Assembly (NCBI RefSeq): GCF_000981585.1 | Contig: NZ_LN831776.1 | Location: 5,811,187-5,875,186, forward strand | DNA: 64,000 nt | Source: Paenibacillus riograndensis SBR5 | GTDB lineage: Bacteria; Bacillota; Bacilli; Paenibacillales; Paenibacillaceae | Direction: 5' to 3' | Part shown: positions 11,294 through 48,881 of the stretch, piece by piece | Position numbering within the stretch: position 1 is the first letter of the stretch | How the letters are laid out: each line of letters opens with the position of its first letter | Notes under the pieces: model-generated | Told to the model about the DNA's origin: nothing | The model's database searches: none | Seen by the model: only the letters and a program-made list of their open reading frames with translations | Position numbers and translations under genes: made by a program

Positions 11294-12240
11294 GTGTTCG
11301 GTTTTTCTCATACATTTGGCCCTACCGCCTCGCGCCTGCCCAATGTGTTCGGTTTTTCGCATACATTTGGCCCGCACACCTCGCACCTGCCCAATGTGTT
11401 CGGTTTTTCACATACATTCGGCCCGCACACCTCGCGCCTGCCCATTGTGTTCGGTTTTTCGCATACATTTGGCCCGCACGCCCAGCGCTTGCGCATTGTG
11501 TTCGGTTTTTTGCATACATTCGGCCCGCACACCTCGCGCCTGCCCATTGTGTTCGGTTTTTCGCATACATTCGGCCCGCACACCTCGCGCCTGCCCATTG
11601 TGTTCGGTTTTTCGCATACATTCGGCCCGCACACCTCGCGCCTGCCCATTGTGTTCGGTTTTTCGCATACATTCGGCCCGCACACCTCGCGCCTGCCCAT
11701 TGTGTTCGGTTTTTCGCATACATTCGGCCCGCCCACCTCCGCACTGCCCAATGTGTTCGGTTTTTCGCATACATTCGGCCCGCACACCTCGCACCTGCCC
11801 AATGTGTTCGGTTTTTCGCATACATTCGGCCCGCACACCTCGCACCTGCCCAATGTGTTCGGTTTTTCGTATACATTCAGCCCGCACACCTCGCGCCTGC
11901 CCATTGTGTTCGATTTTTCGCATATATTCGACCCACGCGCCCCCGCAACGTCCCAATGTGTTCGGTTTTTCGCATACATTCAGCCCGCACACCTCGCGCC
12001 TGCCCAATGTGTTCGGTTTTTCGCATACATTTGTCCCTACCGCCTCGCGCCTGCCCATTGTGTTCGGTTTTTCGCATACATTTGGCCCGCACACCTCGCG
12101 CCTGCCCAATGTGTTCGGTTTTTCGCATACATTTGTCCCTACCGCCTCGCGCCTGCCCAATGTGTTCGGTTTTTCGTATACATTTGGCCTACGTGCCTCG
12201 CGCCTGCCCATTGTGTTCGGTCTTTAGCATACACTCTGGG
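11294..12240 (+). repeat. 51-bp tandem repeat array A, 19 units
   Basis: Units start at 11294, 11345, 11396, 11447 and so on every 51 bp to 12213 (two steps of 52). Each has a conserved ~22-bp core (TGTGTTCG, GTTTTT, CGCATACA) and a GC-rich linker ending in CGCGCCTGCCCA(A/T)T or near variants. The core is an imperfect dyad with a T-rich loop. Because 51 is a multiple of three and the unit has no stops, all six frames are open for hundreds of codons; I treat those as artefacts. The last unit (GTGTTCGGTCTTTAGCATAC) is degenerate. It abuts the 3' end of the nuclease-like gene at 12250. Confidence 0.95.
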
Positions 12241-12249
12241 TCGTATTCT

Positions 12250-12930
12250 TCAGACCAAATCTGGGCTTTGAATGGTACCTATATACTCGTAGTATGTAAC
12301 TCGTTGAGATTTTCCTCTGGTTACTGGGCGAAATTTCCCCTTATCCACTAACATGAGGCTGTATTTAATAACGGTCGTGGTATGTAATTCAAGCTCTCTC
12401 GCAGCATCACCGGGACGAAGAACGCGATAGTTACGGATAGCTAACCTCATCAAAGCTCGTTCAATTCGGGAATAGGATTTCTCTGTGCTTCTATTAGCAG
12501 TTCCTGCCAACAAATAAGGAGACAGAACGTTCCGCAGTGTGGAGAGGACAAAAGTCGGATTCTCTTTCATCTCATCCAGCGAGATATAGAGAACCGTGTA
12601 GTCCTGTGATTGCAGGAAGAGACCGCGATTCAGGTCCATCCGGTATTTGCTCCGGTCCGTGCCATGCGATCCGTAATCCATAATCTCAAATGCAATACGC
12701 GAGGAACCGGCCTTCCACAGTAAATCGATAAAATAGGATCTGCCGCGCCAGTCCTTAACTTCATATTCCGGATGGAGTCCGTGAAAATGTCCGGTAAGTG
12801 GCCACCACACACATTCAACGAATAAGCGGTTACCGTAGCTATGGCCCCGCTTAAGTGCATCGAGTCGCTCCCCCTTTCTACGTTTCAAATGATTGCTTAA
12901 CCATTGGTCATGTTCTTCTGTAAATCCCAC
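12250..12930 (-). CDS. Unknown protein: nuclease-like (PD-(D/E)XK-type) domain plus winged-helix/HTH, between two repeat arrays
   Basis: 226 residues from GTG 12930, which has GGGGG seven bases upstream; a TTG start at 12951 lacks a ribosome site. Residues ~1-60 are basic (NHLKRRKGERLDALKRGHSY). The middle (~70-135) looks like a restriction-fold domain: PEYEVKDWRGRSYFIDLLW, then RIAFEIMDYGSHGTDRSKYR. The Asp in YFIDLLW and Glu in FEI sit where PD-(D/E)XK enzymes have them, but the usual Lys after E-x is Met, so activity is doubtful. Residues ~155-220 look like a winged helix (RIERALMRLAIRNYRVLRPG, AARELELHTTTVIKYSLML). Arrays A and B begin within 10 and 190 bp of its ends. Function unknown; a repeat-binding or repeat-mobilising role is my inference. 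Confidence 0.7.
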   Translation of the reverse strand: MGFTEEHDQWLSNHLKRRKGERLDALKRGHSYGNRLFVECVWWPLTGHFHGLHPEYEVKDWRGRSYFIDLLWKAGSSRIAFEIMDYGSHGTDRSKYRMDLNRGLFLQSQDYTVLYISLDEMKENPTFVLSTLRNVLSPYLLAGTANRSTEKSYSRIERALMRLAIRNYRVLRPGDAARELELHTTTVIKYSLMLVDKGKFRPVTRGKSQRVTYYEYIGTIQSPDLV

Positions 12931-13117
12931 TTTAATTCCCCCGCTCTGCAATGAGATTAAACTCTAAACGCACAAAACCCCGCCTCCTTCTACAAGAGAA
13001 GGGAGCAGGGCATTCTTTGCCACGTTTATTATATCTATTACTAGTGTGCCACTTTTGGTCAGCGAACGCAAGATAAAGATCACAAGCTGCCTTACGGTCT
13101 GTATGCACAAGCACAAT

Positions 13118-13984
13118 GTATTCGGTTTTTCGCATACATTTGGCCCGCCCACCTCCGCACTGCCCAATGTGTTCGGTTTTTCGCATACATTTGGCCCTAC
13201 CGCCTCGCGCCTGCCCATTGTGTTCGGTTTTTCGCATACATTTGGCCCTACCGCCTCGCGCCTGCCCATTGTGTTCGGTTTTCTGCATACATTTGACCCT
13301 ACCGCCTCGCGCCTGCCCATTGTGTTCGGTTTTTCGCATACATTTGTCCCTACCGCCTCGCGCCTGCCCATTGTGTTCGGTTTTTCGCATACATTTGGCC
13401 CGCACACCTCGCGCCTGCCTATTGTGTTCGGTTTTTCGCATACATTCGGCCCGCACACCTCGCGCCTGCCCATTGTGTTCGGTTTTTCGCATACATTCGG
13501 CCCGCACACCTCGCGCCTGCCCATTGTGTTCGGTTTTTCGCATACATTCGGCCCGCCCACCTCCGCACTGCCCAATGTGTTCGGTTTTTCGCATACATTC
13601 GGCCCGCACACCTCGCACCTGCCCAATGTGTTCGGTTTTTCGCATACATTCGGCCCGCACACCTCGCACCTGCCCAATGTGTTCGGTTTTTCGCATACAT
13701 TCGGCCCGCACACCTCGCGCCTGCCCATTGTGTTCGGTTTTTCGCATACATTCGGCCCGCACACCTCGCGCCTGCCCATTGTGTTCGGTTTTTCGCATAC
13801 ATTCGGCCCGCCCACCTCCGCACTGCCCAATGTGTTCGGTTTTTCGCATACAATCGGCCCGCACGCCCACGCGCTTGCGCAATGTGTTCGGTTTTTCGCA
13901 TACAATCGGCCCGCACACCTCGCGCCTGCCCATTGTGTTCGGTTTTTCGCATACATTTGGCCCGCCCACCTCCGCACTGCCCAT
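13118..13984 (+). repeat. 51-bp tandem repeat array B, 17 units
   Basis: Units start at 13118, 13169 and every 51 bp to 13832, then 13884 and 13935, with the same core and linker types as array A. Six consecutive units (13424-13729) have the same order of linker variants as units 11600-11905 of array A, so the arrays share a copied block. The array ends 7 bp before the terminator of the GH10 gene. Confidence 0.95.
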
Positions 13985-31160: not shown

Positions 31161-31196
31161 CGGTTATTCGGCCCACACACATTCGCGCCGTCCAAT

Positions 31197-31630
31197 GTGT
31201 TTAGTTTTTCGCATACATTCGGCCCAAGTACACTCGCGCCGCCCAATGTATTCGGTTTTTCGCATACATCCGGCCCACACGCACTCGCGCCCGCCCAATG
31301 TGTTCGCTTTTTCGCATACATCCGGCCCACACGCACTCGCGCCCGCCCAATGTGTTCGCTTTTTCGCATACATTTGGCCCACACGCACTCGCGCCGTCCA
31401 TTGTGTTCAGTTTTTCGCATACATTTGGCCCACACGCACTCGCGCCGTCCATTGTGTTCGCTTTTTCGCATACATTTGGCCCACACGCACTCGCGCCCGC
31501 CAATGTGTTCGGTTTTTCGCATACATTCGGCCACGCACACTCGCGCCCGCCCAATGTGTTCGGTTTTTCGCATACATTCGGCCCACACGCATTCACATCG
31601 CCCATTGTGTTCGCTTTTTCGCATACATCT
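31197..31630 (+). repeat. 51/52-bp tandem repeat array C, 9 units
   Basis: Units start at 31197, 31248, 31300, 31352, 31403, 31454, 31505, 31556 and 31607. The core is the same as in arrays A, B and D (some units have TTCGC for TTCGG). The linker is of a different type, CCCACACGCACTCGCGCC. A partial unit lies at 31164-31196. The array starts at the kinase remnant and ends 11 bp before the GH31 terminator. Confidence 0.93.
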
Positions 31631-47668: not shown

Positions 47669-47881
47669 TTCATAGAATATAGGTCTTCCCCCCTGAAAAT
47701 TCATAAAAAGAAAACGGTTGCTTGCAGCGCGGCAGCGGAATTGCCGTTCTTCCTGAGCTGGCTGCGCCTGGCGCCTGAGCCTGCTTGCGGCCTCCTCGGG
47801 TTGGCCGGATTTTGACAAATTCAGGCGAATTCAGGGGCACTAATGCTCTTCATTTGGCCACGTGCCGTCCCCCAGCAAATT

Positions 47882-48850
47882 CTGTTCGGTTTTTCGCATA
47901 CATTCGGCCCACGTGCCCCCTACCCAGCAAATTGTGTTCGGTTTTTCGCATACATTCGGCCAACGCGCTTTCCCCCAGAACAATGTGTTCGGTTTTCCGC
48001 ATACATTCGGTCCATGCGCCGTCCCCCAGCAAATTGTGTTCGGTTTTTCGCATACATTCGGCCCACGTGCCGCCTCCCAGCAAATTGTGTTCGGTTTTTC
48101 GCATACATTCGGCCCACGTGCCGCCACCTCAGCAAATTGTGTTCGGTTTTTCGCATACATTCGGCCCACGTGCCGTTCCCCACCACATTGTGTTCGGTTT
48201 TTCGCATACATTCGGCCCACGTGCCGTCCCCCAGCAAATTGTGTTCGGTTTTTCGCATACATTCGGCCCACGTGCCGCCTCCCAGCAAATTGTGTTCGGT
48301 TTTTCGCATACATTCGGCCCACGTGCCGCCTACCCAGCAAATTGTGTTCGGTTTTTCGCATACATTCGGCCAACACGCCCCCTCCCAGCAAATTGTGTTC
48401 GGTTTTTCGCATACATTCGGCCCACGCGCTTTCCCCCAACAAATTCTGTTCGGTTTTCCGCATACATTCGCCCACGTGCCGCCTCCCAGCAAATTGTGTT
48501 CGGTTTTTCGCATACATTCGGCCCACGCGCCGCTACCTCAGCAAATTGTGTTCGGTTTTTCGCATACATTCGGCCCACGTGCCGCCTCCCAGCAAATTGT
48601 GTTCGATTTTTTGCATACATTCGGCCAACGCGCCCCCTCCCAGCAAATTGTGTTCGGTTTTTCGCATACATTCGGCCCACGTGCCGCCTCCCAGCAAATT
48701 GTGTTCGGTTTTTCGCATACATTCGTCCCACGTGCCGCCTCCCAGCAAATTGTGTTCGGTTTTTCGCATACATTCGGCCCATGCGCCGTCCCCTCAGCAA
48801 ATTGTGTTCGGTTTTTCGCATACATTCGGCCCACGTGCCGCCACCTCAGC
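47882..48850 (+). repeat. 51-bp tandem repeat array D, 19 units
   Basis: Units start at 47882, 47934, 47985, 48036, 48087, 48139 and so on to 48804, with steps of 50-52 bp. Core as in the other arrays (three units have CCGCATAC or CTGTTCGG). The linker is a third type, CCCACGTGCCGCCTCCCAGC followed by AAATT. It lies between the promoter region at 47669-47880, where I see no gene, and the GH95 terminator. Confidence 0.95.
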
Positions 48851-48881
48851 ACATTGGCTTTCTAGCCCACCACAGCAGAAA

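Follow-up and report, generated by a model that had tools for sequence, protein, structure and literature searches.

The window analysed here, a stretch of 64,000 nucleotides of the Paenibacillus riograndensis SBR5 genome, contains a small gene set between two arrays of dyad repeats. This raises the question of whether gene and repeats form one system and, if so, how the protein might act on the repeats. The arrangement itself is real: the ORF at 12250–12930 is the only gene between TRF arrays A and B, and two solo arrays share their core (Table 1).

Table 1. Features of the window, with positions counted from its first nucleotide.
Feature	Coordinates	Strand	Description	Evidence
Array A	11294–12233		18.4 units of 51 bp; core T-run on the plus strand, A-run on the gene strand	TRF
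Gene	12250–12930	minus	Vsr/EDxHD-like nuclease and winged helix	ORF, alignments, structure model, fold matches, dN/dS
Conserved leader	12966–13024	minus	stem-loop GGCAAAGAATGCC, then terminator-like hairpin	
Array B	13117–13984		17.0 units of 51 bp; orientation and unit variants as in array A	TRF
Array C	31166–31628		solo array of the array A/B core, 9.0 units	TRF
Array D	47851–48856		solo array of the array A/B core, 19.6 units	TRF

The window gene encodes a nuclease-like protein with a winged helix

The gene encodes 226 amino acids from a GTG start codon, with an alternative TTG at 12951. Alignments and a structure model place a Vsr/EDxHD-like nuclease domain before a C-terminal winged helix. 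The model has a restriction-type fold, a structure-model fold search matched it to a homing-endonuclease catalytic domain, and the EDxHD catalytic-domain fold was found to be present. The original prediction had read a restriction-fold-like domain and a winged-helix-like end from the letters. Within the family alignment, D69, E82, and H89 are invariant and D92 is nearly so, making them candidate counterparts of the EDxHD catalytic residues. The K of an E-x-K motif is M in the subfamily of the window protein, which makes the predicted nuclease activity uncertain. At E ≤ 10, Pfam returned only DUF559, AbiEi_4, and MTES_1575, and no transposase domain; neither Pfam nor the structure model gave an HUH/Y1 tyrosine transposase, in keeping with the earlier view that the protein is unrelated to RAYTs. 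NCBIfam had no match for the protein, PHROGs nothing below E 0.1, and a sequence search of solved structures with the single protein no match. With the family profile, solved structures came up only as weak rows (E ≥ 0.02), for the most part winged-helix regulators along with ribosomal protein S25, and a viral fold library gave DUF559-type and homing-endonuclease-like rows and no better lead.

With dN/dS values of 0.09–0.16 against four orthologues, the gene is under purifying selection (dN/dS about 0.1). In 9/9 relatives checked that carry a gene of this type (type 1), its neighbour is the xylanase gene that also stands beside it in the window, and it therefore looks vertically inherited there; movement of the system, as initially proposed, was not borne out. 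Genes of the type of its paralogue L082 occupy a locus in G049, G046, and G084 that differs from the one in the window's own genome (G000). An origin from phages or plasmids was considered and set aside, as we found 0 phage records, one record from a plasmid (45% identity, on a Paenibacillus replicon of 2.7 Mb), and one locus on a viral contig (30%). Membership in a known defence family was likewise rejected: in PADLOC the window protein went unmatched, and L082 drew only a weak 'homing endonuclease' row (E 0.0077).

The core repeat is linked to the gene within and across genomes

Searching G000 (7.92 Mb) at ≤1 mismatch yielded 64 matches to the core, against 0 for a reversed-letter control, all confined to the window (5.82–5.86 Mb) and one 5-unit array at 5.31 Mb. 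Spacers are alike within one array and related between arrays at different sites; the unique spacers of a CRISPR-Cas layout were not found in these arrays. In a set of 74 distinct type-1 words, Watson-Crick pairing at the three inner positions of the arms had frequencies of 0.54, 0.64, and 0.34, against shuffle means of 0.55, 0.50, and 0.27 (maxima 0.69, 0.64, and 0.35). Since two of the three positions lie near the shuffle maximum, a hairpin or RNA structure is possible; we prefer recognition of the double-stranded dyad as the probable reading. Two further observations concern individual arrays. Array C (31166–31628) abuts a truncated gene, and G000 is about 5.3 kb shorter here than G084 and G046. 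The 5-unit type-1 array at 5.31 Mb (L086 7557–7781, compared with L256) begins inside a dyad and splits a gene that is intact in G052; the best G052 match of its right flank lies 5.3 kb away at 84% identity, and the array is an orientation exception.

Co-occurrence was scored in 100 genomes of the same genus, including G000, with homologues listed at ≥70% identity, fragments counted, and the core sought at ≤1 mismatch. Gene and core occurred together in 25 genomes, the protein alone in 1, the repeat alone in 4, and neither in 70 (Fisher p = 2.4 × 10⁻¹⁸, a value that ignores the relatedness of the genomes). The protein-only genome, G014, holds a fragment, and the repeat-only genomes carry 2 (G052), 29 (G066), 1 (G068), and 1 (G077) core matches; G066, with so many matches and no listed close homologue, counts against a dependence of the arrays on the gene. 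Numbers also differ widely among gene-bearing genomes (64 in G000, 80 in G008, and 307 in G082). Physical linkage holds in other species, as 32 of the 35 stretches around homologues of 56–94% identity (L047–L081) have an array of period 51/52 beside the gene; the exceptions are the broken or partial genes L060 and L070, and L069, which has spaced single dyads. Together with the different arrays owned by other family members, these data support the earlier supposition that gene and core belong together. The family extends to 300 of 394 genomes and 18 of 19 genera of the same family-level group, which was the scope of this search. With the core in 29/100 genomes, some listed family member in 82/100, and none in 18/100, homologues do seem common without the repeat, which would speak against a joint system; this is so only superficially, as those more distant members that we examined carry different words, or none that was found.

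Family members carry different words at a constant pitch

We compared 79 named loci, the best 79 of 346 relatives, from Paenibacillus, Cohnella, Thermobacillus, and one Paenibacillaceae bacterium (42–93% identity). TRF arrays of period 51/52 were present ≤700 bp from the gene at 39/79 loci, and 12 of the other 40 had recurrent dyads 51–53 or 102–104 bp apart, so that tandem or recurrent dyads accompany the gene at 51/79 loci and neither was found at 28/79. By identity to the window protein, such loci make up 11/12 (75% and above), 11/26 (64–74%), 11/19 (57–63%), and 18/22 (below 57%). As controls, 475 kb of DNA lying >2.5 kb away from the genes held 0 arrays of period 40–60, and 1/215 segments had recurrent dyads. 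About 20 different words were identified, dyads of ~16–26 bp such as TTTGTACGAAAAATCGTACAAA, TCTATATGAAAAATCATATAGA, GTAGGTGCATTTTTGCACCTAC, and AGGGGCACAAGTGCCCCT, all at period 51 or 52, i.e., about five helical turns; the word varies among members and the pitch is constant. The paralogue L082 in G000, 44% identical to the window protein, is followed by nine 51-bp units of a different dyad, AGAGGTAAAAATACCTCT.

At the level of sequence comparison, words follow protein relatedness. Word distance correlated with nuclease-domain distance (0.75) and with recognition-helix distance (0.70), and words of the TTGTA[CT]GA type were paired with the helix motif HKQT in 8/8 cases. Given the nuclease domain, the partial r between word and recognition helix was 0.22 (reached by 5/2000 permutations within two groups), against a partial value of 0.43 for the nuclease domain; among the nine members farthest from the window protein, helix and word correlated at 0.59 given nuclease-domain distance. 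As the nuclease domain tracks the word at least as strongly as the recognition helix does, common descent explains much of the pairing. The proposal that the HTH reads the core thus gains indirect support, in that words track the protein and, as described below, exchanges of the HTH-coding end accompany word changes.

Some members deviate in layout. Behind a 30%-identical member on a viral contig come four AATAAGAGTC..GACTCTTATT-like dyads (L286 2250–2442), whose centres lie 52, 63, and 52 bp apart, i.e., five or six turns. Two loci of the 60–63% subfamily have, besides an upstream 51/52 array, a second array downstream with a 41-bp period of ~four helical turns (L068 8096–8501 and L125 48–508 bp after the gene). 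A further dispersed element, composed of TTTTCCACTTAG and ACTTTTTCCACCTAAC, occurs downstream of L084, in the flank of L237, and at several places in G052; it may be the word of the L084-type paralogue, a gene without a tandem array.

A conserved leader precedes most family genes

Of the 79 family genes examined (the window gene and 78 loci), 64 are preceded by a leader in which a covarying stem-loop (GNCRAAGNAYGNC) is joined to a terminator-like hairpin. The pattern, refined on these same sequences, matched 11 of 2591 control segments; the first pattern matched 36/79, against 54/1943 controls. Across an alignment of 32 leaders, pairing holds in 99.1% of cells, and four of seven pairs show changes on both sides. 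The covariation score was reached by 0/500 shuffles, and further pair types were not in excess (435/500). The 3' side of the stem-loop overlaps the terminator-like hairpin, and the leader is possibly an attenuator. Rfam had no match at the window leader and a single sub-threshold row elsewhere.

Arrays in trans mostly follow the direction of replication

Orientation was recorded in a subset of all places, comprising 18 stretches with arrays in G008, 21 loci in G000, and 10 in G052. In G008, the 60 core matches before 3.96 Mb all lie on one strand and the 20 after 4.78 Mb all on the opposite strand, and the A-run is on the G-rich strand, judged by GC skew, in 19/19 fetched arrays. The word of L082 (word 2) is arranged likewise in G000, with 20/22 arrays conforming to the replication orientation, as do 11/11 arrays of word 3, CAACGGCAGAAATGCCGTTG, which stands beside an L083-type gene in G052, and 4/5 type-1 arrays (word 1) of G000. 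Pooled, 54/57 arrays are oriented alike relative to replication (binomial p = 4 × 10⁻¹³ if independent, which the arrays are not fully). In G082, the matches listed (the first 100 of 154 exact) stay on one strand over long blocks, apart from an exception at 1.65 Mb.

The trans arrays are intergenic, and 1/52 typed arrays lies between divergent genes. We rejected the idea that transcription sets the orientation because arrays whose neighbour genes both run against replication still follow the replichore in 6/6 cases, with gene calls that are mechanical longest-ORF picks and not annotation. Strand composition could account for part of the bias, since the A-run strand of the units has the higher A and G content. 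The two word-2 exceptions in G000, L240 5872–6704 (17 units) and L253 5808–6334 (11 units), are located between convergent genes and mostly have TCAT, not TGAT, after the dyad.

Small arrays accompany gene loss

The relative G052 is 94–99% identical to the window where aligned and lacks 10611–34729 (24 kb with the gene and arrays A–C). At the junction, two similar end sequences are fused into a hybrid, which is the trace that a deletion between them should leave. Core matches number 2 in G052 against 64 in G000, and site D has ~2 units against 19.6. L082 is absent as well: 1367 bp including gene and array are missing, and the right half-dyad and spacer left behind make the loss most likely derived.

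Word-2 matches number 84 in G000, 11 in G052, and 0 in nine other relatives. Twenty flanks were queried in G052, of which ten were usable, and word-2 units were counted at ≤3 mismatches at nine orthologous sites; site L242/L275 (6 units in G000, 0 in G052) was left out for its 41-bp flank match. Unit numbers at these nine sites were 6, 2, 11, 8, 8, 5, 2, 9, and 8 in G000 (59 in total) and 1, 1, 1, 0, 1, 1, 2, 1, and 1 in G052 (9 in total). The single G052 units are degenerate at L267 and L274, a second unit remains at one site with its dyad deleted, and another site carries ten near-identical word-3 units instead. At most sites the single units of G052 may be seeds rather than collapsed arrays. 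Site D is present in six relatives with differing unit numbers, and with other words in four of the six. Gene-bearing relatives have ~9 (G084), ~1 (G046), ~1 (G083), ~3 (G086), and ~6 (G085) units; G046 and G083 are thus no larger than gene-less G052, which argues against a strict gene dependence of array size. The small arrays that accompany gene loss suggest, as had been proposed, that the nuclease drives array expansion, with cutting as its presumed activity.

The word changed together with the HTH-coding end

L082-type genes of three sister species differ abruptly along their length. Between G049 and G046, identity is 96.3% in the first 480 nt and 63.6% thereafter; between G049 and G084, it is 95% up to 540 nt and 67% beyond. 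Between G084 and both G049 and G046, dS is 0.14 in the nuclease part and 0.8–0.9 in the HTH part, a jump expected of replacement by recombination. The adjoining words are AGGGGCACAAGTGCCCCT in G049, AGAGGGATAAATCCCTCT in G084, and AAAGGGATATATCCCATT, in a proximal array, in G046, where a distal array with almost the word of G049 comes directly after it (L291 13333–13610). By all appearances, the new-word/old-word pair of G046 is a fossil of a specificity switch, and in this one sister-species group the word evidently changed where the HTH-coding end changed. As the array directly follows the HTH-coding end, a single exchange could replace HTH and word together.

Discussion

A one-gene system of a nuclease and its cognate arrays, in which the HTH would read the word and the nuclease would keep arrays amplified in trans, has in our judgement an even chance of being correct. 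We infer binding, nicking or cutting, fork-coupled duplication, and any selfish or host purpose from patterns in the DNA. A protein dimer would bind the dyad via its winged helices, the Vsr/EDxHD-like domain would nick or cut the bound dyads or the DNA close to them, and repair linked to a passing replication fork would duplicate the 51-bp unit; under this proposal, arrays would grow only in the orientation that yields duplication. Where the protein is absent, arrays would shrink by slippage and dyad deletion, and joint exchange of HTH and adjoining array would reset the word. A bolder form is a bacterial 'array drive'. In it, an HTH-programmed nuclease, working in trans and linked to the replication fork, would multiply its own word in one replicative polarity at dozens of sites, and would renew its specificity by exchange of the HTH along with the adjoining array. 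We offer this form tentatively and would sooner expect it to need revision than to hold in full.

One rival is the chance proximity of unrelated minisatellites, given that tandem repeats occur in many genomes; unless the controls are faulty, 51/79 loci against 0 arrays in 475 kb and 1/215 control segments refute it, and we grant it practically no probability. A host system deserves more weight, though we consider it rather unlikely. The arrays would then be phased binding platforms marking the direction of replication, for example as polar fork barriers or chromosome organisers, and the protein would bind and perhaps trim DNA there; arrays would grow as a side effect of stalled forks or because more sites are selected for. 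The polarity of 54/57 arrays, the vertical type-1 gene with its constant xylanase neighbour (9/9), the purifying selection (dN/dS about 0.1), and the intergenic placement (1/52 between divergent genes) would all fit, but core matches vary widely among gene holders (64, 80, and 307 in G000, G008, and G082), sister species can have different words at one and the same site, and 18/100 genomes are without a listed family member.

REPIN-like mobility, in which this protein or an unseen transposase would copy arrays or units to new places as small non-autonomous elements, seems improbable. It would explain the related spacers at different sites and the 5-unit array at 5.31 Mb that interrupts a gene intact in G052; that case, however, is accompanied by ~5 kb missing and is no clean insertion, a transposase domain is absent, and those examined sites that have other copies in relatives are shared, not new. 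Still less credit goes to defence or self-recognition, with a nuclease attacking incoming DNA and chromosomal dyads serving as decoys or self marks. A nuclease joined to an HTH, several diverging members per genome, and fast specificity change speak for such a role, whereas decoys would need neither a fixed 51-bp pitch nor replication polarity, and PADLOC returned no match for the window protein and, for L082, only the weak 'homing endonuclease' row (E 0.0077).

Among known systems, RTP-Ter of Bacillus replication termination combines a winged helix with asymmetric dyads whose orientation is tied to the direction of replication. These traits recur here, the link to replication taking the form of orientation statistics; the nuclease domain, the tandem arrays, and the sites over both replichores set the present system apart. 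REP-RAYT pairs are similar in that a lone gene lies beside its own palindromic repeats, which are also scattered in extragenic DNA, a feature found here too, and in that a genome holds several gene–repeat pairs with distinct repeats. They differ in the enzyme, as a RAYT is an HUH/Y1 tyrosine transposase and the window protein a Vsr/EDxHD-like nuclease with a winged helix, and in layout, as REPs are GTAG-tagged and mostly singlets or inverted doublets, whereas the units described here are direct tandem repeats at 51/52 bp and GTAG is absent from the type-1 core word. The shared logic, as set out in PMC3116915 and PMC3733652, does not make our system a member of REPIN-RAYT, since enzyme and repeat layout differ. 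EDxHD (Vsr-like) homing endonucleases such as I-Bth0305I lack the C-terminal winged helix added in this family; the putative target here, the dyad, occurs many times per genome and in tandem, with no intron or intein known and no homing seen. I-Bth0305I is reported (PMC3943268) to dimerise on nearly 60 bp, which is of the order of the 51–52 bp pitch, and a guess by analogy would be that one protein dimer spans neighbouring dyads. Relative to the DUF559, MTES_1575, and Vsr families, the window protein scores below gathering thresholds and adds an HTH and cognate arrays. No earlier description of these arrays or of the gene–array pairing was found in the open-licence literature, and within that scope this looks like a new kind of protein-and-repeat system.

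The findings join a widespread small nuclease family to an apparent helix-to-word code. If confirmed, the nuclease-and-array system would be a tractable model for a protein that creates and maintains tandem DNA, for replication-polarised genome marks, and for the fast turnover of protein–DNA specificity. The natural HTH exchanges and gene losses would serve as ready-made experiments, and some 20 helix–word pairs are available for predicting and testing specificity. Should the array drive prove true, words would turn over genome-wide by a logic comparable to that of PRDM9 and its hotspots.
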